A DNA stretch of 17,342 bases from an uncultured Erysipelotrichaceae bacterium (GTDB taxonomy: Bacteria; Bacillota_I; Bacilli_A; Acholeplasmatales; Anaeroplasmataceae), in the NCBI GenBank assembly GCA_902783745.1, contig CACZRY010000093.1, forward strand, positions 1 to 17,342. Direction: 5' to 3'. The translations under genes and the position numbers were made by a program. The notes beneath the pieces are model-generated. The model saw nothing but the letters and a program-made list of their open reading frames with translations. It made no database searches and had not been told where the DNA came from. Positions 2,473 to 16,544 of this stretch are shown here, in pieces; positions within the stretch are counted from its first letter, which is position 1, and every line of letters begins with the position of its first letter.

Positions 2473-2498
2473 AAGGGTAAGGCACATGCCTTACCCTT
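2473..2498. terminator. Bidirectional intrinsic terminator between convergent genes
   Basis: A perfect 12-base inverted repeat, AAGGGTAAGGCA / TGCCTTACCCTT, with a 2-base apex (a 4-base loop in practice). The plus strand continues with ATTTTTG, and the minus strand has a shorter run of Ts. It starts just after the stop of the plus-strand gene and overlaps the stop of the minus-strand gene, so it can end transcription from both sides. Its GC-rich stem stands out against the AT-rich surroundings. Confidence 0.92.
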
Positions 2499-3471
2499 AT
2501 TTTTGAAATTTTGATAAATGTTCAAATGGTGTGATCATTCGTCCTTTTAAAAGTCCACAACCATCATTAACTAAAGAATTAGATGTTGCACCAAACATAT
2601 TTACATCAACTAAAGAATAATCGATATTTTGAAGTAATTCTTCTCTTTTTATTGCTTCATCAAAATAAATAGATTCTCCTTCTTTAATTCCTAATCTTCT
2701 ATTTCTTTTTTCAATTTGCTTATTTTCATAATTAATATGATTTGCACTACCAATTTCTGCAAAATCATCCATATCCTTAGTTCTTAATTGTAATTCAATA
2801 TAACAATCTGCAATATCATCATGTAATGTTAAATGGAGTGACTTATATCCATTACTTGATGGATTTGATACATAATCTCTTACGTATTTGTGAAGAGATG
2901 GATTCAATAAAAAAGAATGATTTATATCCTTACTAGATTCAACAATACTAAATCCTCTTTCACTTAAGAATTTAGGTAAAATATTTGTAATTTTATATAA
3001 TAATTCTAATTCAATTTCACTTCTTTTAGTATCATCTTTAAAACTTGATTTAGGTAATTGAATAACTATTCTATATGCAATTAAATCTCTAAAACCATCT
3101 AGCTTTTTCTTTAATTCTTCAATATCAGGTATCTTACCTGTTTTTTTATATCCTTCATATATGTATTCAATAACATAGCCATTAAATTTTTGTTCAGCAC
3201 GAATAAGTGATTTTATTCTACCCTTAAAAGTAAATGATAAAAATGGATATTCGCTTACCATATATTGATAAAGTTCTCTTATTCTTTGGGCTTGAGATGT
3301 AATGAAATCATTATTCTCAAGTAAATCAATTTGTTGCTGTAAAAACATTGTATGAACCTTATCTATTTCATTTGATGTTTCTTCAATAGATTTACATAAA
3401 TCTGAATAATATCTATGAAGTATTTGTATAACAGTATCCCCATCATATAAATAATCAGTAAGTTTTACCAT
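2497..3471 (-). CDS. RelA/SpoT-domain (p)ppGpp synthetase-like protein
   Basis: A 324-residue protein with a RelA/SpoT nucleotidyltransferase domain at about residues 78-250. Visible motifs are GRIKS (84-88), FRDLIAYRI (127-135, with the Mg-binding Asp129), NGYKSLH (207-213, the guanine-binding G-loop Tyr region) and IELQLRT (225-231, with catalytic Glu226), followed by AEIGSANHINYE. The catalytic residues look intact, so synthesis of (p)ppGpp or a related alarmone from ATP and GTP/GDP is expected. There is no HD hydrolase domain and there are no TGS/ACT regulatory domains, so it is a small alarmone synthetase type. It is longer than the usual 200-260 residues, with a helical N-terminus of about 75 residues and a C-terminal tail of about 75 residues that I do not recognise. 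AGGAG at 3479-3483 lies 7 bases before the start. It is monocistronic, with no small antitoxin-like gene beside it. Confidence 0.85.
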   Translation of the reverse strand: MVKLTDYLYDGDTVIQILHRYYSDLCKSIEETSNEIDKVHTMFLQQQIDLLENNDFITSQAQRIRELYQYMVSEYPFLSFTFKGRIKSLIRAEQKFNGYVIEYIYEGYKKTGKIPDIEELKKKLDGFRDLIAYRIVIQLPKSSFKDDTKRSEIELELLYKITNILPKFLSERGFSIVESSKDINHSFLLNPSLHKYVRDYVSNPSSNGYKSLHLTLHDDIADCYIELQLRTKDMDDFAEIGSANHINYENKQIEKRNRRLGIKEGESIYFDEAIKREELLQNIDYSLVDVNMFGATSNSLVNDGCGLLKGRMITPFEHLSKFQK

Positions 3472-3531: not shown

Positions 3532-3566
3532 TAAATAAATAAAGAGGCTTATATTAATTAAGCCTC
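3532..3566 (-). terminator. Intrinsic terminator of the helicase/surface-protein operon
   Basis: On the minus strand, GAGGCTTA / TAAGCCTC forms an 8-base stem with a 7-base AT loop, at 3544-3566, followed by TTTATTTATTT. It begins 16 bases past the stop of the giant surface protein gene and upstream of the RelA/SpoT-like promoter, so it separates the two transcription units. Confidence 0.85.
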
Positions 3567-3582
3567 AATATTATTAATTAGA

Positions 3583-6500
3583 TTAAATTAATACTATACC
3601 ATATAAACCTGAAATACTATATCTACTGCTCTTTTCAATAGTGATTACACCAGATAAACCAGATAATTCTAAAATACCTGATGATGGTATTTCATAAATT
3701 TCATCATTTATACTAATTCTATTATAATAAGAATTTGTTAAATATCCAACTAATATTAAAGTTGTATATGTTGTATTTGATAAATCAATGGTAATAGTTG
3801 TTGATGATTCAATCTTCAATACCTTACTAAATTCATGTTCTAAATATGATTTAGTTGTAGTAACTTGATTATTAATATTTCCTTTAACAGTACATAATTC
3901 ACTTGATGATGTATCATTTTGAGTAAAATCTATAAATAATGCACTATTAATAATATAATCATAAGAATCATTTAATAAGAATTCTATTTCGTCATCTGAT
4001 ACACCTAATTGGTTATATAATTCATAAACATTATTATACCAAACAGGATTTTCAATAATACCCATATCAGTAGTATAATATGCTGCTAAAGCCTTTAAGC
4101 TTTCTAATGTTAATGAAACATCATATGTATTAGATGATGATGAGCTTGATTGCATTATAATAGATTCTTCAGTTGTTGTGAACTTAATATAATAATGACC
4201 ATAACTTGTAGGTACATTATTTACTACCTCAACATCTAAATCATTATCTGTATAAACCTTATCAAGTTTTGCAAGAACTGATTCAGGATAATCACCCCAC
4301 CAGCTTGGTTCTATTGAATTCCATGCAAAGCCATAACCAACATAAATCTTAGATACAACTACATTTAATGTATCATAAATAGACTTATAATTTGCGTTAC
4401 TTGACATGATTTCAAAGCTATAACCATTTTCCTTATAGCTTTCAAATGTACCATCAATATAGAAATTAACATCATCATCTATTATATTAGAAAGATCACT
4501 TGAAGCTACATTAATATTTACATTATGTTCCAATCCATCATAATTACATGCTAAATAATACTTCTTATCCCATGTTACTGTTGCAGTAACATCTTCATCA
4601 GTATCAAGTGAGATATTAATATTAACCTCTATTGGTGATACGCTTATATAACATGTCATATCACTTGGAACATTATAATTGTTTGATGTTGTTTCAAATG
4701 TAGCAGTACATAAAACTTTACCATCTATTACATTTGTAACTTGACCTGTATATTTAACAGATAGCTTTAGACCATCTAATCCTTCTACTAAATCAAGGCC
4801 AGATACAGTTTGTTGATGTGCTGTACCATCGTAATTAAATACTACATCTTCAAATGTTACAGATGACATATCATAATCAGCCTTCTTAATAGTATATGAT
4901 ACAGTTGATGATGCTTTATAGTTTGAATTAGAAATTGATGCTATATAGGCAGTATATGTACCTGCATCTATCGCATATCCACCAACCTCAAATGTACATT
5001 CATCATCATTTAATAATCCATTTAGCTTAGCTATAGGATAATGCTTTGTATTGTCATATGTAAATGTAGTATTTGCCCATGTTACAGTTAATTCCTTAGC
5101 TACAATTGTAATTGTTGCTCTCATAGACTTAGGTACGTTATAGTTTTCATCTATAGTCTTAAATGAAACAGTAACTGTTACAGTACCATCAATAACGTTT
5201 GTTGCACCACCTGTATATTCATCAACGGATACGCCTTGTGGTAATTGACCAGAAATTACTGGATGTTGTAATTGACCATTATATTCTATAATTAAATCTT
5301 CAAATGATACAGATGACATATCATAATTTGCTTTAGTAATTTTATATGTTACATCATCAGGTATTGTTAATGAATAATTATTATTACTAATTCCAATAAC
5401 TTCAATAGTATATTCACCAACGTTAATGCCACCACCGTTAATAGTTAATTCACAAGCATCACCAGAAATTAATCCTATTAATTCATAGTTTGGACCTTGT
5501 AATTGACCATTATATTCTACTTCTAGGTCTAACCATTTAACAGTAAGTTCACGTTTTGTAATTGTAACCTCAACTGTAATATCAGGAATTGAATTGTAGT
5601 TTGAATCAACTTCAAATCTTACAGTAATTAAATGAGTACCAACTTGGCTACTTAATCCAATAAAGCTATAAGTTGCACCACTTGGCATTTCACCTACTAC
5701 AATTGGTTTTAAATCAGTACCATCATATACCTTAGTATTTTCTTCAAATGATACTTTTGAAATATCTAAGGTTGCCTTTTCAATAGTGAAATTATATTCA
5801 TTATTAGAAGGAAGCTTATAATTTGGATTTGATAATGATACAGCCTTTGCAGTATATTCTCCTGCGTTAATTCCAGAACCAGAAACATTTACTGTACAAA
5901 TATCTGTTAACAATAAACCATCTGCAGTACATGAAGGCTTTTGTTGTAAGCCATTATATGTGAAATTATCACCTGCCCACTTTAATGAAATAGTTTTTGC
6001 AGTAATAATTACTATTGTTGACATTTCAGGTATTTGATTATAGTTATCAGACCCCTTAAATGTTGCAGTAACTCTTCCTTGACCTACATCCTTAATACCA
6101 TCTGAATATTCAATAATAACTGGACCATCTAAGCCCATAATTTCAACAGCATCTCCATCTGATGTCTTAAGACTAGGTCTTTGTTGGTAACCATTATATT
6201 CAAAAGTATATACACTTTCAAATTTTATATTTGAATAATCATAATCAGCTTTTTTAATTTCATAAGTATACTTTGAATTATCTAAATCGAAAGTATAATT
6301 TGTATTACTAATTGAATTTACATATACAGTATATGTACCTGCATTAATATTATTAGAATAATCAGTTAATACTACTTCTGCATCATCACCTGAAACTAAA
6401 TTAGTAATTGATACATTAGGCGCAATAGCCTTACCATTATAAATAGGTGTGTTTTCAAATGAGAATACAAATGATGCAGTTCTTGGCGTAATTGTTACAA

Positions 6501-9500
6501 TAGCTGTTCTAGATGTTGGTACATTATATGAGTCATCAGTTGCTTCAAATGATACTGTTACAACTAATGAACCAACATTACAAATACCAACTTTATCATA
6601 TTTAACATTTAACCAATCAGGCTTATCATCTAAGAATTGCACTTCTGGCCTATGATAATCTCCATCATATGTATAAGTTACATCTTCAAAAATAAATTCA
6701 AAATTATAATCTTTTGCAACAATTGAATAAGTTGTTTCTACATTATCACTACCTAAAGTATAGTTAGTATTAGATAAGCCTATCGCAGTTGCAGTATGGT
6801 CTCCTACCGCAGATTCACCATCACCATCAATATATACAAAACATATATCATTTAATACTAAGTTAGTAACTGTTGCTGTTGGCTTTTTTAAAGAACCATC
6901 ATATTCGAATGTTGTTTGTGACCATTGGATTACTGCAACACGTTTAGTAATTGTTACATTAATTGTAATTGATTTATTTGCATCATCAATAACATAATTT
7001 AATGAATCAGGATTGAATTCTGCAACAACCTTATAAGATCCTGCATTCTTACCAAATCCACTATAAGAAACTGTAACGCTAGTTGGAAGCTTATCCTTAG
7101 AAATAGTTGGATATTGATTGCTACCATTATATTCATAGCTTGCATCAGTATATCCTAATTCACTTGTATCAAATGTAATCTTCTTAGGATTAATCTTATA
7201 TTGATATGTTTTATTTTCAGGTAATTTATAATTATTTAAATCATTATTCTTTAATGATAAATATGTAATTGTATATGTACCTGCATTAACTGAATTAGAA
7301 TAATCATAAACTAATTCTAATCCTTCAATAGAAATTGTATATGTAGGAACTTCGATATTACCACTATAAGTAGTTTCACTAAAGCTCCAGCTAATATCTA
7401 CTTCCTTAGGATTAATAATTACACAAACATTATATGTTGTACTAATTATTTCATTTGGTTTATCTTTATATTTAAATGAAACTAATACATCATAAGTACC
7501 AACATTTATAATATCCTTATCACATTTAAATATAGCTTCTACATTATCAGGTATAAAAGTGAATTCAGGTTCATGCTTATTACCATCATATTCAAATTCT
7601 AAATCACCAAATTCTATGTCTGTTAATTCATTTGTTTTTGCAGTAATACTATAAATAACCTGGTTTTCTAATAATTTATAATTTTTATAAATATAATTAT
7701 TATCATTCTTACCCTTTAAAGATTTAATTGATGCAGTGTGGTTACCTATAGAATTTGCACTACCTTCTTCTTCACATGCTACATAATCTAAATCCTTTTG
7801 TAATACATTTTTTAAAGTATATGAAGGGAATTGCAAATTACCATCATATTCAAATGTTAAAATCTTACTCCAAGTAACTTCTACATCTCTAGCATTAATA
7901 GTAATTAAACCATTCATACTTTCTGGTACATTATAATTATTAGATAATGTATAAAAATTACATGCTACTACCTTTTGACCAACATTAGTTAAGCCTTCTT
8001 CAAATTCATAAGTAATTTGAATATTGTCAAGACCGATTGGTAATTCACCTACTAAAGATGGAGTATGCATATTTCCATCATATGTATTTACTAAATCCTT
8101 AATTGATATATTACTCATATCATATGATGCTTTTGAAATAGATATGTTAATATCTTTTGTTCTATATTTAGTTTCTACTAAATTATTATAATTTAATGTA
8201 ATTATTGCATAATATGAACCTGAATCTACTACATTTTTAACATTAAATCCTTCATCAGTAACAATTATCTCATTATTACTATTATAAAATTCATAGCTAT
8301 AACTTGCATTAGATAAAACATTTGATATAGATAAATCAACATAATATGATTCATTATCATATATCTTATTTAAATCATCTGATATTATGATATTTGGTTC
8401 ATCAATTACCCATTTAGCATATAATGTATCAAATTCACCGTTTAAGCTTTGAGATGCTTTGTTGCTAAAATATGGATCTAAATACCAACCTTCAAAGCTA
8501 AATCCTTCCTTTTTAGGTTCAACAAATTCAATAACATCTTCTTCTGTATAAATTAATGTTTTATCTGAATCAAATGCTACATCATCTAATATAGTATCAA
8601 ATGTAATACTATATTCTTTTAAGAACTTAGCTTTTAAATTTAAATCAGTTGTAATATCAGGATTAATTTCAGTATATTCCTTTGTATAATTACCATATTC
8701 ATCTACTAAATACCAACCCTTAAATTGATATCCATCTTTTTCTAATTCAGGTAGCTTAATAGTACCTAAATCATCATAATAGACTTCTGGTAAATCATCA
8801 TTAGATGAGGCACCTGAATAATCATAATTAATATTATAAATATAACTATAATTACAATTAATTTCAGTATTCTTACTTACTGTAATAGGAAATGTAATAT
8901 CTAAATTACCAATATTATATCCATCATATAAAATCTTTCTTCCATCAATTTCCTTTTCTAAAGAATCACTTGATGGTTCTTCTAATAATTCTTCATCTTT
9001 AAATATATATACTGGAAGATTTGTTCCATTAAAACAAACATAATATTCATCATCACCTACAATAGGTACAAATAAATAATCATATTTTCTATTAGCACTT
9101 CTATATTCATCTACTAATGTTCTATCAGTTTTAATTCTAATATCCTTATTTAGGTTTTCTAAATCAAGCTTAGTATTAGCGTTATTTAAATAAATAACCT
9201 CAACATTAGAATTATTAATTGCATCCATTAATTCTATATCTAATGAATCGATATATACTTCTTTAACCTTTGAATCTAAAAAAGCATCTTTAGATATATA
9301 TTTAACACTAGATGGAATAACTAAAGTTCCAGAAACATTTACTAAACTATTATCAGATATAGCAATAGTATCATCTTTAATTATTACATCACCCTTACCT
9401 TTTAAAACATTATTTAAAACATAACCATTATATAATTTATCGTATGTATAAATAATCTTTCTATTATTTGTTGATGTAATTACTACAATTAACGCAACAA

Positions 9501-9981
9501 CTGTAAGTAAAGATGCAATTGCTAAAGGTACACCTTTAACACCAAAAGTCTTTTTATCATCTGTTATTTTAGTATTAAACAATAACATCGCAAGTGAAAC
9601 AAGACATATTATTCTTGCAATTAAACAAATAATATATATATTATTGCCTATAGATAAATAAATAATATAAGGAATTATAGGTAAGAAACATATAATCATT
9701 ATTCCTACCTTTGTTATCATAGATGCTCTTGCAAATCTTTTTATAGTAAATGTTAAAAGTGAGCCTACTTGTGCAACTAAGAATATTACTAATAATACAG
9801 TTGATGCAATAGGCATACCTGTATATATACCTTTTATTAATAAGAATACATCTATAAATATTAGTAAAGCCATTACTAAGAAATTTAAGACATTCATTAT
9901 CTTTAGGTTTCTTATATGGCTTTTATTTAATTTTTGCTTTTTTAACTTTATAGAATTATCTATATTATCATATAAAGCCAT
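3583..9981 (-). CDS. Giant membrane-anchored surface protein: LRR, InlB B-repeats, MBG-like repeats
   Basis: A 2132-residue protein. After a basic, cytoplasmic N-terminus come five hydrophobic segments at about 30-51, 56-80, 88-110, 113-136 and 149-171. An odd number puts the long remainder outside the cell. Then follow a BspA-like leucine-rich repeat stretch (about 191-260: LVIPSSVKYISKDAF), two InlB-type B-repeats (about 385-454 and 457-525, each with a G-[YF]-x-F-x-GWYL core), about 17 MBG-like beta domains (541-1876) keyed by Y-[DN]-G, a Trp-rich segment (about 1880-2020) and a C-terminal beta-sandwich (about 2022-2132) resembling that on pectate lyase-type proteins. There is no cleavable signal peptide, LPXTG or enzyme motif, so adhesion, glycan binding or a cell-surface stalk is inferred. 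Last gene of the operon, it starts 4 bases after the preceding stop. It is intact, with no frameshift. Confidence 0.88.
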   Translation of the reverse strand: MALYDNIDNSIKLKKQKLNKSHIRNLKIMNVLNFLVMALLIFIDVFLLIKGIYTGMPIASTVLLVIFLVAQVGSLLTFTIKRFARASMITKVGIMIICFLPIIPYIIYLSIGNNIYIICLIARIICLVSLAMLLFNTKITDDKKTFGVKGVPLAIASLLTVVALIVVITSTNNRKIIYTYDKLYNGYVLNNVLKGKGDVIIKDDTIAISDNSLVNVSGTLVIPSSVKYISKDAFLDSKVKEVYIDSLDIELMDAINNSNVEVIYLNNANTKLDLENLNKDIRIKTDRTLVDEYRSANRKYDYLFVPIVGDDEYYVCFNGTNLPVYIFKDEELLEEPSSDSLEKEIDGRKILYDGYNIGNLDITFPITVSKNTEINCNYSYIYNINYDYSGASSNDDLPEVYYDDLGTIKLPELEKDGYQFKGWYLVDEYGNYTKEYTEINPDITTDLNLKAKFLKEYSITFDTILDDVAFDSDKTLIYTEEDVIEFVEPKKEGFSFEGWYLDPYFSNKASQSLNGEFDTLYAKWVIDEPNIIISDDLNKIYDNESYYVDLSISNVLSNASYSYEFYNSNNEIIVTDEGFNVKNVVDSGSYYAIITLNYNNLVETKYRTKDINISISKASYDMSNISIKDLVNTYDGNMHTPSLVGELPIGLDNIQITYEFEEGLTNVGQKVVACNFYTLSNNYNVPESMNGLITINARDVEVTWSKILTFEYDGNLQFPSYTLKNVLQKDLDYVACEEEGSANSIGNHTASIKSLKGKNDNNYIYKNYKLLENQVIYSITAKTNELTDIEFGDLEFEYDGNKHEPEFTFIPDNVEAIFKCDKDIINVGTYDVLVSFKYKDKPNEIISTTYNVCVIINPKEVDISWSFSETTYSGNIEVPTYTISIEGLELVYDYSNSVNAGTYTITYLSLKNNDLNNYKLPENKTYQYKINPKKITFDTSELGYTDASYEYNGSNQYPTISKDKLPTSVTVSYSGFGKNAGSYKVVAEFNPDSLNYVIDDANKSITINVTITKRVAVIQWSQTTFEYDGSLKKPTATVTNLVLNDICFVYIDGDGESAVGDHTATAIGLSNTNYTLGSDNVETTYSIVAKDYNFEFIFEDVTYTYDGDYHRPEVQFLDDKPDWLNVKYDKVGICNVGSLVVTVSFEATDDSYNVPTSRTAIVTITPRTASFVFSFENTPIYNGKAIAPNVSITNLVSGDDAEVVLTDYSNNINAGTYTVYVNSISNTNYTFDLDNSKYTYEIKKADYDYSNIKFESVYTFEYNGYQQRPSLKTSDGDAVEIMGLDGPVIIEYSDGIKDVGQGRVTATFKGSDNYNQIPEMSTIVIITAKTISLKWAGDNFTYNGLQQKPSCTADGLLLTDICTVNVSGSGINAGEYTAKAVSLSNPNYKLPSNNEYNFTIEKATLDISKVSFEENTKVYDGTDLKPIVVGEMPSGATYSFIGLSSQVGTHLITVRFEVDSNYNSIPDITVEVTITKRELTVKWLDLEVEYNGQLQGPNYELIGLISGDACELTINGGGINVGEYTIEVIGISNNNYSLTIPDDVTYKITKANYDMSSVSFEDLIIEYNGQLQHPVISGQLPQGVSVDEYTGGATNVIDGTVTVTVSFKTIDENYNVPKSMRATITIVAKELTVTWANTTFTYDNTKHYPIAKLNGLLNDDECTFEVGGYAIDAGTYTAYIASISNSNYKASSTVSYTIKKADYDMSSVTFEDVVFNYDGTAHQQTVSGLDLVEGLDGLKLSVKYTGQVTNVIDGKVLCTATFETTSNNYNVPSDMTCYISVSPIEVNINISLDTDEDVTATVTWDKKYYLACNYDGLEHNVNINVASSDLSNIIDDDVNFYIDGTFESYKENGYSFEIMSSNANYKSIYDTLNVVVSKIYVGYGFAWNSIEPSWWGDYPESVLAKLDKVYTDNDLDVEVVNNVPTSYGHYYIKFTTTEESIIMQSSSSSSNTYDVSLTLESLKALAAYYTTDMGIIENPVWYNNVYELYNQLGVSDDEIEFLLNDSYDYIINSALFIDFTQNDTSSSELCTVKGNINNQVTTTKSYLEHEFSKVLKIESSTTITIDLSNTTYTTLILVGYLTNSYYNRISINDEIYEIPSSGILELSGLSGVITIEKSSRYSISGLYGIVLI
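4350..8361 (-). repeat. Coding array of MBG-like domains, alternating A and B types
   Basis: Units of about 70-87 residues carry a Y-[DN]-G-x(3-4)-P core near residues 541 (degenerate), 634, 711, 798, 871, 951, 1028, 1106, 1183, 1263, 1343, 1421, 1491, 1568, 1643, 1718 and 1815. From 634 on they alternate. A units read like YDMSSVSFEDL..YNG..H.P..SG.LP with a VTVSF strand and NYNVP near the end. B units begin with an [VI]xW strand and contain NAGTYTA and SLSNxNY. That makes eight A/B pairs of about 150-160 residues. DNA identity supports duplication by pairs: 4847-4877 and 5297-5327 differ at one base in 31, exactly 450 bases apart. Confidence 0.85.
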
Positions 9982-9985
9982 AAAA

Positions 9986-9993
9986 TCACCTCT
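9986..9993 (-). promoter_or_regulatory. Ribosome binding site overlapping the upstream stop codon
   Basis: On the minus strand, AGAGGTGA contains the final Arg codon (AGG) and the TGA stop of the cysteine-rich protein gene, and lies 4 bases before the ATG of the giant surface protein. Ribosomes ending the first gene sit on the start signal of the second, which favours translational coupling. It also shows that TGA is read as stop in this organism. Confidence 0.8.
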
Positions 9994-12067
9994 TTATCTT
10001 AAATACTCTTTCTAAATGTAAAAATTTATTTTTATCATCAGTAATTAAATAATATGTAACAAGCTTGTTTTTAGACTCACTATATACCCATAACGAATTC
10101 CATTCACTATTAAAGTGATAAGAAAGCTTCTTTTTAAACATATCACTTGCTTCAATATTCATTCTTATTAAAGCTTGCTTTTTAGCATCTAAGTTTTTAA
10201 TATCAAATGTTTCAACATTCTTACTACAATTAACACATAAATGAGTTTTTGAATCTATGTGATTTGGGCAATAATATTTTCTGCATGATATACATAAATC
10301 CGGTAAGTGATTCTTTCTATTTATATCAACAAATAATAAAGAATCCTTCTTTTCAGTACAAGATATACATGTATCTGTGTATTTTAAATCATTAATATCA
10401 TCTAAGAAATATTTATTTTGTCCTTTAGAATAAATAATAGATAATCCATTATTATATTTACTATTATCCTCTTCTTGTGCGCAATATTCACAACAAGATT
10501 TTTGATCACTATTAACAATCAAATGAGAGAATAAATACATATTCCATACCTCATCTGTTGCCGCAAATAAATGATTACAAGTCATGCATCTTCTTTCGTA
10601 TTGTTTAGATACATAATGTCTACTATCATCATCTATTATTGCAGCACCTAATATATCTTTTGCTAAAACCTCAATAGTATCACCAATATAGTAATAATTA
10701 CCTGATATTTCACCTTTTACAATTTGACTCTTTAAGTATGTATTAGAATCTACTTCTCCATCAAAAGGATAAACCTTATTATCAATTAATTTAACAAGTG
10801 AATCCTTTAAGAAATATACATCTTTATAAATATCATTATTAAATCTTTCATCAAGTCCATATAACATTACACTTGATTTCTTTAATGTCATTCTAGGTTT
10901 AACCTTACCTCTTAATGGGGCATCATCAAATGCTAATACTAATTCTTCATTTGAAACATGTTCTATTATTCCATCTATATCAACATCATATAATACATCA
11001 TCTAGGTTTAATGGGTTATATGTAATTTCATACATTAAAGGATAATCCTTATAATATGGATTTATACTTGTAACCTTATAAACACATTTCTTTTCTACAA
11101 TGTGATTACAATAAATAGATAATGGTGTTAAGCTAAATTCAATCTTAGGTTCAACAGATTGACTTTCTTTTAAAAATTCTTCTCTTGATTCTATTAATTT
11201 AGCTAAATTAGTATTACTATTGTTTCTTAATGTTTCAAAGATATTAAATTTAACATTAGGATCAGACATTAGATTTCTTATTCTTAATAAAGAATCAATA
11301 TCTTCTAAATCAACATCTTCATTTATTGCATCATATACAGGTTCAGCCTCAGTTTGACCTATATTAAAAAATCCATATGATACTTCATTTTTAGATAAAG
11401 ATATAAATATATCATCAATAACATTTTCACTTAATGTTTGATTATTAAAGTTATCTTTATAATTAACTAAAACCTTAATTTCATTTTGAATAGTTGATGT
11501 TTCAAAATCAGTATCTATGATATGACTGAATTCTTTATTATAATAATTAGATTCTGGCATACTAGGATATTTATCAGTTTTAAAATCCGCTTTTCTAACT
11601 AATAAAATATTATATTTAGCCATTATTCTTTTCATTAAAGTATCAACAAATAAAGATGTTCTACTTGCGTATTCAATTTTCTTTTTAATATCATGCTTAC
11701 GCTTATCAAATGTGACATCATAAATAATATCATCAAATGATTCACTATTAATTTTAAAGATAAAATGAGTGCTTGATACAATATCAATATATCCATTTAA
11801 ATCAAGTAAGCATTTAAGCTTATATTCATTTGATATATCATAAACTATACCTAATGAAATAGCTTCTCTTACTAAATCAATAACTTCAGTTATAGGTAAG
11901 TTTGCTCTTAATTCATTAATCAATGGTAAGTTTTCATTTGAATCTAGCTCATTATAATTAAATTTATATTCTTTATCGTTAAGGATGAAATTATTGTTTT
12001 CATCCTTAACTAAAATTCCTAGTTTAGAAGCGTAATCAATTAAATCATTTACATATAAAAGATTCAT
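9986..12067 (-). CDS. Unrecognised protein with Cys-rich, probably zinc-binding C-terminus
   Basis: A 693-residue protein of no family I recognise, with no signal peptide or membrane segment, so probably cytoplasmic. The first 480 residues are a mixed alpha/beta sequence without a known motif; part of it (about 100-130 and 340-370) has repeated acidic beta-type strands. The C-terminal third carries cysteine pairs typical of zinc ribbons or treble clefs: CMTC (494-497), CCEYC (525-529), CISC (567-570), CISC (592-595), then C600-P-N-H603 and HLCVNC (C611, C614). These could hold three zinc ions. Such clusters usually bind DNA, RNA or protein partners. It starts 13 bases after the helicase stop, and its weak Shine-Dalgarno (AGGATG) overlaps that TAG. 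It ends 4 bases before the giant surface protein. A partner or adaptor of the helicase is a reasonable inference from position only. Confidence 0.75.
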   Translation of the reverse strand: MNLLYVNDLIDYASKLGILVKDENNNFILNDKEYKFNYNELDSNENLPLINELRANLPITEVIDLVREAISLGIVYDISNEYKLKCLLDLNGYIDIVSSTHFIFKINSESFDDIIYDVTFDKRKHDIKKKIEYASRTSLFVDTLMKRIMAKYNILLVRKADFKTDKYPSMPESNYYNKEFSHIIDTDFETSTIQNEIKVLVNYKDNFNNQTLSENVIDDIFISLSKNEVSYGFFNIGQTEAEPVYDAINEDVDLEDIDSLLRIRNLMSDPNVKFNIFETLRNNSNTNLAKLIESREEFLKESQSVEPKIEFSLTPLSIYCNHIVEKKCVYKVTSINPYYKDYPLMYEITYNPLNLDDVLYDVDIDGIIEHVSNEELVLAFDDAPLRGKVKPRMTLKKSSVMLYGLDERFNNDIYKDVYFLKDSLVKLIDNKVYPFDGEVDSNTYLKSQIVKGEISGNYYYIGDTIEVLAKDILGAAIIDDDSRHYVSKQYERRCMTCNHLFAATDEVWNMYLFSHLIVNSDQKSCCEYCAQEEDNSKYNNGLSIIYSKGQNKYFLDDINDLKYTDTCISCTEKKDSLLFVDINRKNHLPDLCISCRKYYCPNHIDSKTHLCVNCSKNVETFDIKNLDAKKQALIRMNIEASDMFKKKLSYHFNSEWNSLWVYSESKNKLVTYYLITDDKNKFLHLERVFKIKR

Positions 12068-12080
12068 ATATTATCACATC

Positions 12081-15000
12081 CTAGTTATTTCTAATATCCC
12101 CTCTTAATACCTTAGAATATAATCTAATCATACTCTTTATAGCATCAAGTGGCTTTAATATGTTTCCATTATAATAAACATCAATTTTATCGTTATTATC
12201 CATTGCGTATTTTACAATGTCTGGGAATCTTTTGGCATTAAACTCTATATAATCATCATGATATACTGCAACAAATTCCCTATTTAATTCACTTATATTA
12301 ACATTATCTTTTTTCTTATATGAATGCGTACTTGAGAATAGCTTTTGTGATACAGCCATAATTACAGGCATTACAAAATCAACCTCTGTTTGACATACAC
12401 CATATAAATCAAATCCTTCTTCATCAGTTAATATATTATAATATTCTTTATTAAATTCATGGTTAATATTATTATTATCTCCATTAGTAAGACATGTTAA
12501 TACAAGACATGTTTCAGTTTGACCCATTCTAGAGATTCTACCTATTAATTGTTCTAACTCTAAAGGATCCATATATTCATTGTTTTGTTTATCAAGCTGA
12601 CCAATAATTAATAGGTTTGCTGCATTAAAATCTGTACCTGCAACCATTGTTTTATCAATAAAATATAAGGAATTCCAATTTTCATTTTCTGATGTAAATT
12701 CAGTAAACCAGTTATAATTTAATTCCTTAAAATTATCACCAACAAATGCTTTTTTAATAGTACCATTTACTGTATAAGAATCTTTTAATCTCTTTTCTTC
12801 ATATGAAAGCTTATTATCATCCTTTGCTAATATTTCTTCCATCTTTTCTTTCATATCTTTTGCATGTTTTCCTTTAGGGAAATATCCAAAATGTATAAAG
12901 TCAGATAATTCATAATTATCTTCTTCATTTATATAAAGATTCATATATACTCTTCTTGATTTATTAAATATATCTTTACTTTCTTTAATATTCTTATAAA
13001 GCTTAACTCTTAATTCAGGCTTTCTTTCATAAATTAGAGTTTTTGCAGTTTCTATAAATAATAAATCTTCTTTTGATGCGTTAGGATATTTATTAAATTT
13101 ATTATCATTAATAGATAATAATTCTTTTAATATCTCAATCTTATTAGAATCACTTGAAATATCAACCGCAAATCCTTTCTTTCTTGGTCTTCTCCAATCA
13201 ATAAAATCAGATAAGAATACTGTTGAATATTCATGATATGCTCTATAGAAAGCTAAAAGTCCTCTATTGATATATGAACATAAAAGATCACAAGTAAGAA
13301 TAGCTTTTTTATAGATATCTCCTAAATCATTTTCATTTTCTGATTTAATAATTATTCTATAATTTTCAATGAATTTATCATAAACATTAAATAAATCAAG
13401 CTTCATTCTCATTTGATATTCTAATCTCTTAGTACAAATTTTTACTGATTGTTCTACTAAGGATGAAATATTTAAGAATGCATCTTTAAATATTTCATTA
13501 GAAATTGTTCTTTTTGGGAATAATGGTCTTATATATTTATCTATGAATATATTTGTTTCATCTTCAGTCATAGTAGTCATTTCAGGAGCTTTTCTTATTG
13601 CCCCAACAAGCTTAATAAATGCTTGTCCACCATAATCGTCTCTTCCATATTCTTTTGCGTGAATTATTTCATCTTCTGTTGCTGAATGTCTTCTTATCGC
13701 ATCAATTACATCATTATCGTATAATCTTTTTCTTGTAAACATCGAATTAATAAGACCATTTAGCTTACTAAATTTCTTTGATGCATCATTTGATTCTGCC
13801 ATTTCAGATAAACTTCTTGCACCACCACAATATGCATTATAGAATTTAGCTTCAGCCATTTCTTTATTTTCACCTAATCTATTTTTATCAACCATATATA
13901 GTAGGTTAAATATATCTGATAAGTCATTTCTTATAGGTGTTGCTGAAATTAAAATACAATATTTCTTTTGGATATTTGCAATAAATTCTTGTAATATCTC
14001 TTCTTTGTTTCCTTTTTTATTAAAGTCAATTAATAAATCTTGTACTTCATCAAAAATTAATAAATCAATTAATCTTTCTTCTGCAAGCTTATCATCCTTG
14101 GCTAAATTAGAAACCATATTGATTAATGTTTGTTTTCTTTCTTCTATTTTAGCTAATGCTTTAGTATATTTTTGAAGTAAAGATTTTTCTTTTTCTAAGA
14201 TATATCCATTATCATTTTTCATTTGCATTATTCTATCATTAGTTGGATAGAATATTTTCTTTTGTTCATCAAATTCATATGTGAAGAATCCATATACATT
14301 AAATGATGTTATCTTTTGATATTCTTCATTTAATGAAAGTGATTCTTTAATTACTCTTGATAATTCTTTTGGTATTCTCTTTTTAATAATATCTAAATAT
14401 TTAATAGACATTATTTTATTAATATCCATATCTATTACTGAAATATCACTTGGTACTTCAGGAGATGGATTATATACTTGATTTTTTAATTCAAAATATT
14501 TACTTGACTTTTTTATATACTCTAATGTTGAATTAGATTTAATTTGTTCTGTTGAAACTAAATATACCTTTAATGCATTTTGATTTTTAGTAGCCTTATC
14601 CTTTTTTAATTCTTGAATCAATTCAATAAATGAATATGAATCATGCTTAGGATAAACCTCAAACATAGGACTTCCATCCTCATGACGGAATTTAGTATTA
14701 CATTCATTTCTCCATTGATGTATTGTTGATTTAGTTGTAACAATAACACAATTTTTAATTGTTGCACATCTAAACATTACATCTGCAGTCATTAATGCTT
14801 CAAGTGTTTTACCAAGTCCTACCTGATCTCCAAAAACGCCTCTTCCTTCAAACTTTTTAAGCATTGTTCTTACTGATTCTACCTGATACTTAAAAGGCTT
14901 AAAATAAGGATATTCACTAATATCACCATAATCTTGGAATACAGGTTGTTTTCTTACATCAATAGCGTAATCTACTAAATTATGGTATGCAGAATAATCA

Positions 15001-16544
15001 TGAATATTAAATGTATGAGTTTTAATATCATCATCAAATGATATTTCACTATAATCTTCATTCATTAATGATACTTTTACATTTTTACCAAATAAAGATA
15101 TTCCTCTACCTTCATTTTCTAAATCAGTATCTAATGATTTCTTATTTTCAGGCAATACACTTTCAGAAATATAAATGAAGAATTTTTCTAAGTCTCTAAT
15201 ATCTTTTGCGATATCTTGGAAATCACTTCTTTCATAGATCTTAAAAGATGGATCCTTAAGTCCACTTGTTAAGGCAAGATAATCAAATACCTTAACATGC
15301 TTTAAATAATTTTCTTTTTGACGAAGTAATCTCTTATATAAGAATTCAGCATCACTTTTACATGTGATATTTCCAATCTTTTTCTTTGAAATATCATCTC
15401 TATTACCAACTTCATCTTTTAATCCCATTAAGAATTCACAGAAATTCTTAATCTTATTTGATAAATCACGTGCCAAAGATAGGCGCTTTTGTTCTTCATA
15501 TCTTACTTCAATCTTTGTAATTTGTAAGTCAATTAATTGATATAAATAATTAATTGAACCTTCCTCTTCTGATGTAACAATAAACGTTAGTTGATTAAAT
15601 AATTCAGGTAATTCCTCATACATAATTGAAACAAAATCTACATATTCATTGTATCTTTCAACTGAATTATTATATAAATCATTTACTTGATCATTGATTT
15701 CATTTAAATCATCTAATCTTTTTATAGTTTGAATATTAAATTCAAAGCTATCTACCTTATTTTTAATATATTTATAAGTTTTCTTTATTTCTGGTTCAAA
15801 TATTTTATTAGATATATTCTTTAATATTTCATCAATCTTATCATATTGCATTAAAGCGAATTGATATAATGTTTGATATCTTGACATAAATCCTAAATCA
15901 AATATCTTAAATTTTTGATTTAGCATATTTTTAATTTCACACACCTGATGAAATGACATATCATCATCTTTTTTATCACGTAAGCTTTTAATTGTATCAT
16001 AGGCATAGCTAAAATAATCATCCATCTTAACTAAAAACATATTTAATTCATAAGGTACAACATCACCCTCATCATCATAAAAAGCATTTTGTCTTACAAG
16101 CTCAGGCATCACAACTTCTGGGTCTAGGGCAGATGAAAATGATTCAGGATCAGTTAATATTGAAAACATTACTAAAGCTTCTTGGAAGAAAGGGTAAAAA
16201 GGCCACATATCTTCTTTTAGGCTTCCTATAACTTCTAATATATCTTTAGTATCAGTTAATAGTTTTATTATTTCTTGATATCTATCTTCATATTTAATAA
16301 TATATTCAAATGAATCTCTAAAAAATAAAAATAATCCAATTGGATAATAATATTTAGGAGTCTTTATAGCGATACTATCAAATTTATTTAAAAGCTTATC
16401 ATCCTTATATGATGGACTTGAAAAATCAGCGTCAAATAATTCATTCATTTGATTAAAATTAAGCTTATCTTTTGGTTTTAATCCTAAAGTTTTTCTTACA
16501 AGTTCGACTAATAAATCCATATTTTCTTTATATTGCTTAATCAT
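12081..16544 (-). CDS. SNF2-type helicase/translocase with large insertions
   Basis: A 1487-residue protein whose C-terminal 950 residues form a superfamily 2, SNF2-like ATPase. Motifs in order: a Q-motif-like FKPFKYQVESV (548-558), Walker A GDQVGLGKT (572-580), motif Ia near TTKSTIHQW (603-611), Walker B DEVQD (832-836), motif III SATPIRNDL (867-875), motif V near GTDFNAANLL (1303-1312) and motif VI QLIGRISRMGQ (1332-1342), whose GRxxRxGQ form is typical of SNF2. About 250 residues separate motifs I and II and about 430 separate III and V, so both lobes carry insertions. The first 540 residues are mostly helical and unrecognised. No nuclease or methylase motif is seen. Expected activity is ATP-driven movement on double-stranded DNA or remodelling of protein-DNA complexes. 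AGGTGG (16552-16557) lies 7 bases before the ATG. First gene of the operon. Confidence 0.85.
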   Translation of the reverse strand: MIKQYKENMDLLVELVRKTLGLKPKDKLNFNQMNELFDADFSSPSYKDDKLLNKFDSIAIKTPKYYYPIGLFLFFRDSFEYIIKYEDRYQEIIKLLTDTKDILEVIGSLKEDMWPFYPFFQEALVMFSILTDPESFSSALDPEVVMPELVRQNAFYDDEGDVVPYELNMFLVKMDDYFSYAYDTIKSLRDKKDDDMSFHQVCEIKNMLNQKFKIFDLGFMSRYQTLYQFALMQYDKIDEILKNISNKIFEPEIKKTYKYIKNKVDSFEFNIQTIKRLDDLNEINDQVNDLYNNSVERYNEYVDFVSIMYEELPELFNQLTFIVTSEEEGSINYLYQLIDLQITKIEVRYEEQKRLSLARDLSNKIKNFCEFLMGLKDEVGNRDDISKKKIGNITCKSDAEFLYKRLLRQKENYLKHVKVFDYLALTSGLKDPSFKIYERSDFQDIAKDIRDLEKFFIYISESVLPENKKSLDTDLENEGRGISLFGKNVKVSLMNEDYSEISFDDDIKTHTFNIHDYSAYHNLVDYAIDVRKQPVFQDYGDISEYPYFKPFKYQVESVRTMLKKFEGRGVFGDQVGLGKTLEALMTADVMFRCATIKNCVIVTTKSTIHQWRNECNTKFRHEDGSPMFEVYPKHDSYSFIELIQELKKDKATKNQNALKVYLVSTEQIKSNSTLEYIKKSSKYFELKNQVYNPSPEVPSDISVIDMDINKIMSIKYLDIIKKRIPKELSRVIKESLSLNEEYQKITSFNVYGFFTYEFDEQKKIFYPTNDRIMQMKNDNGYILEKEKSLLQKYTKALAKIEERKQTLINMVSNLAKDDKLAEERLIDLLIFDEVQDLLIDFNKKGNKEEILQEFIANIQKKYCILISATPIRNDLSDIFNLLYMVDKNRLGENKEMAEAKFYNAYCGGARSLSEMAESNDASKKFSKLNGLINSMFTRKRLYDNDVIDAIRRHSATEDEIIHAKEYGRDDYGGQAFIKLVGAIRKAPEMTTMTEDETNIFIDKYIRPLFPKRTISNEIFKDAFLNISSLVEQSVKICTKRLEYQMRMKLDLFNVYDKFIENYRIIIKSENENDLGDIYKKAILTCDLLCSYINRGLLAFYRAYHEYSTVFLSDFIDWRRPRKKGFAVDISSDSNKIEILKELLSINDNKFNKYPNASKEDLLFIETAKTLIYERKPELRVKLYKNIKESKDIFNKSRRVYMNLYINEEDNYELSDFIHFGYFPKGKHAKDMKEKMEEILAKDDNKLSYEEKRLKDSYTVNGTIKKAFVGDNFKELNYNWFTEFTSENENWNSLYFIDKTMVAGTDFNAANLLIIGQLDKQNNEYMDPLELEQLIGRISRMGQTETCLVLTCLTNGDNNNINHEFNKEYYNILTDEEGFDLYGVCQTEVDFVMPVIMAVSQKLFSSTHSYKKKDNVNISELNREFVAVYHDDYIEFNAKRFPDIVKYAMDNNDKIDVYYNGNILKPLDAIKSMIRLYSKVLRGDIRNN

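Follow-up and report, generated by a model that had tools for sequence, protein, structure and literature searches.

A coupled operon of an SNF2-family ATPase, a cysteine-rich protein and a giant surface protein with a predicted pectin-binding tip

What brings an ATPase of the SNF2 family into one operon with a giant protein of the cell surface? We addressed this question in a 17,342-nucleotide stretch of an uncultured Erysipelotrichaceae bacterium (GenBank assembly GCA_902783745.1, contig CACZRY010000093.1; contig C93 in our set), hereafter the window, meaning the whole stretch, which belongs to a draft genome of 1.44 Mb that is 81.8% complete. Its minus strand encodes, in order, an SNF2-family ATPase (the motor), a cysteine-rich (Cys-rich) protein of no known family and a giant membrane-anchored surface protein (Table 1). 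The three genes are tightly coupled and co-occur strictly in the genomes searched; the surface protein has a multi-segment anchor and a CBM77-type C-terminus, and the SNF2 motifs of the motor are intact. On this basis we tentatively favor, at somewhat less than even odds, a trans-membrane glycan-contact device with an inner SNF2/zinc DNA module. We infer each functional step of this proposal, and weigh it below against four other explanations.

One operon, inherited as a unit

As the initial annotation had stated, the three minus-strand genes are separated by gaps of 13 bases (motor to Cys-rich gene) and 4 bases (Cys-rich to surface gene), and a stop codon overlaps a ribosome-binding signal: the Cys-rich gene stops at TGA, and these are the last three bases of AGAGGTGA. 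Junctions were measured in nine carriers, where the spacing between motor and Cys-rich gene was 9–13 bases, while the Cys-rich and surface genes were 4–6 bases apart in six and shared a one-base stop/start overlap in three. The ribosome-binding site of the surface gene always lay inside the end of the Cys-rich gene, reading AGAGGTGA in eight carriers and AGAGGTGG in G009. Given that this junction geometry was kept in 9/9 carriers, the arrangement is beyond chance, and the three genes are confirmed as one tightly coupled operon. The single terminator at the operon end was also recovered, and the accompanying claim that none is internal was nearly right, the scan returning one weak minus-strand candidate within the surface gene (6137–6121); candidates in the window numbered 8, against 2.2 expected.

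Our main search set comprised 100 related genomes, 27 of them in the genus of the window (window genome included). Ten of the 100 encoded the Cys-rich protein, all within the genus, and the same 10 held the motor at high score; two extra, weak motor matches (G031 and G040) covered the SNF2 core only. The anchor region of the surface protein was likewise found in these 10 genomes, and an eleventh, G001, matched residues 186–257 only, an LRR-like part. Motor and Cys-rich genes adjoin in 9/10 carriers (they lie on separate contigs in G017, and the contig of G005 holds only the last 223 motor residues), and the Cys-rich gene adjoins the surface gene in 10/10. In even samples, a Cys-rich profile gave three matches among 395 genomes of the class and two among 392 of the phylum, the window's own included, and a profile of the motor N-terminus gave two among the same 392, all in this genus. 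The cassette was thus not found beyond the genus in the 100 related genomes or the class and phylum samples. A motor pattern scan of a collection of 84,980 species' genomes returned nine loci, with titles of metagenome-assembled genomes of Acholeplasmatales, Bacillales or Erysipelotrichaceae; two were titled goat rumen or reticulum, and we take the isolate names RUG and RUI to denote rumen. Viral contigs gave no close relative.

These patterns bear on the simplest alternative, that the genes are chance neighbors sharing a promoter. Their functions look unrelated, as that explanation would have it, but co-occurrence in 10/10 carriers, coupled junctions in 9/9 and the similar way in which the three genes have diverged bring it close to refuted. 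The initial annotation had named motor and Cys-rich homologs without a membrane surface protein as the finding that would undo its linkage, and every one of the 10 genomes holding both also has the anchor region. Given one inherited unit and a five-segment protein that would span both compartments, there is good support for the idea that these are parts of one thing; the unit being real, its components probably matter to one another. The complex and the DNA-handling and phage-defense roles that the annotation attached to the operon do not follow from this.

The surface protein and the envelope of its carriers

The five-segment membrane anchor proposed earlier was borne out by hydropathy in 9/10 copies, the window copy among them; G007 has four, its third segment falling narrowly under the cut-off (1.79 vs. 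1.9). Residues 1–185 occurred only alongside the cassette in the 100 genomes. As for the LRR, InlB B-repeat and MBG domains that had been read in the outside part, the Listeria-Bacteroides (InlB B-type) and MBG_2 families passed their Pfam cut-offs in the window, as did SNF2, with MBG_3 below its own, and the InlB-type repeats recurred in 8/8 orthologs. The LRR assignment held only weakly: an LRR-like part follows the anchor, LRR_5 was not listed by Pfam for the window copy, and in orthologs it reached E below 0.01 in 5/8, with a best score of 22.8 bits under a cut-off of 27.7. Along the stalk, YDG/YNG landmarks recur about every 75–80 residues. The LRR-like part also resembles that of a 4449-codon frame in G001 (L193:3-13349), whose start is lost at the contig end and which has no membrane segments in the stretch covered.

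The tip was not part of the initial annotation, and it pulls the interpretation towards plant-glycan contact. Pfam did not list CBM77 for the window tip alone at E up to 1, and found it in six of eight full-length orthologs, at the extreme C-terminus in the three examined. A profile built from the six other tips matched the window tip at 7e-26 (90.7 bits, leave-one-out), and a profile of all seven matched PDB 5fu5_A (CBM77-RFPL) at 1e-14. Pfam on the orthologs and the tip profiles thus place this domain in the CBM77 sequence family. Two lysines are invariant in 7/7 tips and present in 5fu5, and lysines of CBM77 bind the ligand. In 5fu5, which we take to come from Ruminococcus flavefaciens, the module is presumably part of an enzyme, whereas here it ends a membrane-anchored rod. 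The CBM77 ligand is tabled as low-ester homogalacturonan (PMC5943554), and the outer end of the surface protein looks like a plant-glycan binder with a predicted pectin-binding tip. The protein of G009 carries a different tip on a longer stalk (3176 aa).

The invariant lysines could also serve DNA uptake or transport, in which the tip would bind polyanions including DNA and the motor, a member of a dsDNA-translocase family inside the cell, would draw DNA through the five-segment protein. However, Pfam recognized no channel, nuclease or competence domains in the three proteins, and we know of no SNF2 translocase that imports DNA, and we regard this explanation as very improbable.

The envelope of the carriers, which the initial annotation had overlooked, was probed with PF08245 (Mur_ligase_M). 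Six of the 27 genus members have 4–6 Mur-ligase hits (G004, G006, G014, G016, G020 and G021), while the other 21, all 10 carriers among them, have at most one. In eight carriers the lone hit sits in a frame of 408–427 codons, the size of folylpolyglutamate synthase, and G005 and G024 have none. Given that completeness reaches 90% or more in four carriers (G003, G007, G009 and G015), this scarcity is not merely missing sequence, and the carriers seem to have lost the cell wall. Carriers were associated with Mur-ligase scarcity in a one-sided Fisher test uncorrected for kinship (p 0.04); however, one hit or none is also the count in 11 of the 17 non-carriers, which means that wall loss neither requires nor explains the cassette. 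With six members at 4–6 hits and the rest at none or one, the wall may have been lost within the genus, in trees that are only partly resolved. Peptidoglycan synthesis has been described as deteriorating in gut Tenericutes lineages (PMC7301438). A membrane-anchored rod fits a wall-less surface.

In the contact device that we favor, a laterally moving three-gene cassette would build a rod projecting from the wall-less cell, with a tip for acidic plant glycan, which would be low-ester pectin in most species, and for another ligand where the tip has been swapped. Short basic cytoplasmic segments of the anchor would serve as docking sites for the motor and the zinc-binding Cys-rich protein, ligand binding or tension would alter the motor's access to DNA, and ligand contact would thereby change DNA or transcription in the cell. 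The analogy is with RsgI anti-sigma factors, which link substrate sensing to transcription, the output here being an ATP-driven remodeler. RsgI has a single membrane segment; in contrast, the operon protein has more, no anti-sigma domain was recognized, and an SNF2 motor takes the place of the sigma factor. Shared with RsgI of Clostridium thermocellum would be a membrane protein coupling substrate sensing to transcription (PMC12203970).

We count in favor of this device the identical set of 10 carriers, the coupled junctions in 9/9, the CBM77 tip with its tabled ligand, the motor motifs intact in 8/8, the kept and slowly changing anchor, the single Mur-ligase hit at most per carrier, the rumen or reticulum titles (2 of the 9 named loci) and a Cthe_2159-type gene near the cassette in G000 and G015. 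Several points weigh against it. Hydropathy places no more than some 30 residues at the N-terminus and two short loops in the cytoplasm; the tip is not universal, as G009 shows; the Cys-rich protein was modeled too weakly (mean pLDDT 69.6) to reveal a docking domain; and to our knowledge SNF2 motors do not act as outputs of surface receptors. The Cthe_2159 family binds polygalacturonate (PMC6712302), but the gene may be a chance neighbor, because relatives sit away from the cassette (L186, L189). It is doubtful, though conceivable, that the operon represents a new class of trans-membrane machine, an ATP-driven SNF2 remodeler wired through a new zinc adaptor and a multi-segment anchor to a giant glycan-binding rod on a wall-less cell, so that touching pectin, or a ligand exchanged for it, would act directly on DNA or transcription; in a bolder form, the motor would mechanically pull the rod as a surface-leg machine.

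The motor, the Cys-rich protein and known systems

The motor belongs to the SNF2 ATPase family, with motifs I, II, III, V and VI intact in 8/8 full-length orthologs; motifs III (867) and V (1303) are set far apart. Its N-terminal region was modeled by AlphaFold2 at a mean pLDDT of 75.9, with the beta element at about residues 480–513 near 50, and fold comparison of this region gave no confident match. The best motor matches outside the genus were short stretches around Walker A, those shared with defense helicases in PADLOC and NCBIfam spanning about 50–75 residues, and an additional RAD54-like stretch lies at 855–896.

Phage defense is the main rival to the contact device: a membrane-anchored sensor whose ectodomain is large would detect phage at the surface and recruit or release an SNF2/zinc DNA-targeting module, as is thought of Zorya for ZorCD. 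The four NCBIfam models matched by the motor (DpdE, DrmD, PLD anti-phage protein and RapA) point this way. However, the best stretches in common with defense helicases are the short ones around Walker A, Pfam and PADLOC recognized nothing like a nuclease, methylase or toxin domain in the three proteins, and a tip that looks like a glycan binder is unexpected. Weighing these points with the neighborhoods described below, we consider this explanation somewhat unlikely.

The Cys-rich protein had no significant Pfam, NCBIfam or PADLOC family and no PDB sequence match. Two predicted zinc-site patterns are invariant (Table 1), and the second has four paired ligand sites with two-residue spacing in 9/9 orthologs, a spacing that is the rule in FYVE/RING-like cross-brace domains; Pfam FYVE appeared for 2/9 at a non-significant E of 1.6. 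The protein is a candidate new zinc-protein family.

The operon matches no known system among those tested, and membership in DISARM, Zorya, BREX and Dpd failed on the criteria tested. The DrmD and DpdE matches reached 41.3 and 43.5 bits against NCBIfam cut-offs of 610 and 500. DrmB/DUF1998, methylase and PLD genes were absent among the eight window proteins scanned with Pfam, in agreement with the earlier statement that no DISARM methylase or phospholipase D gene is present. PADLOC gave no ZorA/ZorB (MotA/MotB-like) match in the surface or Cys-rich protein, and a ZorD-type match only at E 0.002 over 54 residues, with no nuclease domain in Pfam. BrxC, PglX and PglZ were absent among the window proteins scanned (five by PADLOC, eight by Pfam).

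Partial likenesses remain. Zorya type I (ZorABCD) also pairs a membrane complex with a cytoplasmic helicase partner, and a surface event is proposed there to recruit DNA-acting proteins (PMC11890865). ZorAB is described as a MotAB-like ion motor that has a tail in the cytoplasm and a domain for binding peptidoglycan, whereas the long part of the operon protein lies outside and its carriers are seemingly wall-less. DISARM and ARMADA use SNF2/RapA-like helicases (DrmD in DISARM, the BrxHII-like ArmA in ARMADA), and in DISARM a zinc-binding helicase part is described as a separate adjacent gene (PMC12458937); in contrast, the operon lacks the DUF1998, methylase and PLD families and its motor similarity is short. 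BrxHII/RapA of BREX type 3 shares the Swi2/Snf2 core and possibly a small beta element ahead of it, but is described as about 940 residues long with C-terminal alpha+beta domains (PMC12839542), whereas the operon motor has 1487 residues and a long helical N-terminus. Literature searches, judged by titles and the opening parts of abstracts, returned no description of this gene set (SNF2, anti-phage, helicase, membrane, zinc), and nothing combining an SNF2 helicase and CBM77.

Table 1. Features of the operon in the window.
Feature	Position	Strand	Basis
Gene 1, SNF2-family ATPase, 1487 aa	12081..16544	-	Pfam SNF2-rel_dom 1.2e-14; motifs in orthologs
Motor N-terminal region, residues 1-545	14910..16544	-	AlphaFold2 model: long-helix rod, then low-confidence small beta element
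SNF2 motor core, residues about 553-1400	12345..14888	-	Motif positions, Pfam; outer limit by eye
Gene 2, Cys-rich protein, 693 aa, no known family	9986..12067	-	Pfam, NCBIfam, PADLOC and PDB searches; gene order
First zinc-site candidate, C494xxC497 ... C525C526xxC529	10481..10588	-	Pattern in 9/9 sequences; invariant columns
FYVE-like cross-brace candidate, C567xxC570, C592xxC595, C600xxH603, C611xxC614	10226..10369	-	Pattern in 9/9 orthologs
Ribosome-binding site of gene 3, AGAGGTGA	9986..9993	-	Overlaps gene 2 end and stop codon
Gene 3, giant membrane-anchored surface protein, 2132 aa	3583..9981	-	Open reading frame (ORF), Pfam, hydropathy
Five-segment membrane anchor, residues 31-168	9478..9891	-	Hydropathy
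Two InlB-type B repeats, residues 382-524	8410..8838	-	Pfam Flg_new, two stretches; 8/8 orthologs
Stalk of MBG-type Ig-like repeats, residues about 540-1850	4432..8364	-	Pfam MBG_2; YDG/YNG landmarks
C-terminal tip, CBM77 type	3586..3933	-	Profile of six other tips; profile match to PDB 5fu5_A
Intrinsic terminator, hairpin and T-rich tail	3544..3566	-	Terminator scan; directly after surface gene

Transmission, neighborhoods and selection

Protein identities were compared for the pairs G000-G015, G000-G003, G003-G007 and G000-G007. A ParE-type gyrase paralog gave 98, 82, 82 and 79%, respectively, the motor 81, 79, 57 and 57%, the Cys-rich protein 76, 72, 50 and 50%, and the surface protein 57, 50, 28 and 30%; rpoB (77% for both G015-G003 and G003-G007) agreed with the ParE-type comparison. 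Relative to G007, the G000/G015 and G003 cassettes are therefore far closer than these core genes predict. The simplest reading is lateral transfer within the genus, with unequal rates as a less simple alternative. The rpoB frames themselves span 1270–1295 codons in G007, G009, G010, G013, G018 and G022 and 1116–1252 in the remaining members whose frame is full-length, and the longer ones may reflect a subgroup-specific insertion.

The close trio G003, G024 and G025 (rpoB 93% for G003-G025; a G024 fragment clusters with both) shares no genes flanking the cassette in the stretches compared; upstream of the cassette the comparison covers G003 and G024 alone, as the contig of G025 starts within the motor gene. 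The block downstream of the cassette in G003 (DUF2089, HAAS, a 107-aa protein and TIR/Sel1) is present without the cassette in G025 and in G024, there with four extra ORFs inside. However, G007 and G008 share upstream genes and G000 and G015 share downstream genes, as expected from descent, which weighs against a purely mobile picture.

For phage defense, these differing neighbors between close species, and the likely lateral transfer, add to a patchy distribution in the genus (10/27), and several neighboring genes would suit it. PADLOC identified a PDC-S05 candidate-defense gene, presumably RhuM-like, upstream in G003 and a DinG/Cas4-like protein farther upstream in G008, and a RelA/SpoT-synthetase-like gene adjoins the cassette in G000 and G015. 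On the other hand, eight of the last 10 cassette neighbors scanned had no PADLOC match, and the absence of close relatives in viral contigs counts on the same side. The RelA/SpoT-like protein of the window (2497–3471, minus strand, 324 aa) has its sole close relative (81%) in G015, longer Rel-type proteins being located elsewhere in these genomes. Also on the minus strand of the window lie the lipoprotein-like Cthe_2159-family protein (1–1299), which has a Thr-rich linker encoded by tandem repeats, and a pyridoxamine-oxidase-like protein (1373–1858) nearest to NimIJ at 133 of 270 bits, below the curated cut-off. Five ORFs precede the cassette in G008 (L032:5144-11132) and G007 (L034:3832-9855), encoding a DUF2779/Cas4-like protein, two MutS-V proteins and two proteins with no clear family.

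Substitution rates were estimated from four pairs whose synonymous rates (dS, 0.59–1.61) are near saturation. Nonsynonymous rates (dN) were 0.08–0.16 for the motor, 0.09–0.20 for the Cys-rich protein, 0.14–0.28 for the membrane anchor and 0.40–0.60 for stalk and tip, so that dN of the ectodomain was roughly 3–5 times that of the motor at similar dS. The fastest change thus lies in the outside part, as adhesins and phage-facing proteins alike would show. Such a rate, an adhesin-like rod architecture and the tip swapped in G009 would also suit an adhesin operon in which the SNF2 and Cys-rich proteins regulate expression or variation of the adhesin and form no complex with the anchor. Yet the tight translational coupling and the conserved multi-segment anchor suggest partners, and the few other large surface-type proteins in these loci begin, by eye, with apparent single signal or lipoprotein peptides, making adhesin regulation rather improbable. 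The anchor evolves more slowly than the stalk in 4/4 pairs (dN 0.14 vs. 0.43 for G000-G015 and 0.28 vs. 0.52 for G007-G008), and given that it is both kept and slower, it may be more than a tether.

If the three proteins cooperate, a chromatin-remodeler-type motor would form part of a bacterial surface receptor, a link between the two compartments for which we know of no precedent. A weaker outcome would still be useful, namely a defined mobile cassette, a new zinc-protein family and a genus whose members seemingly differ in their cell wall. In either case, the cassette yields testable predictions: pectin binding, complex formation, and a phage or transcriptional phenotype.

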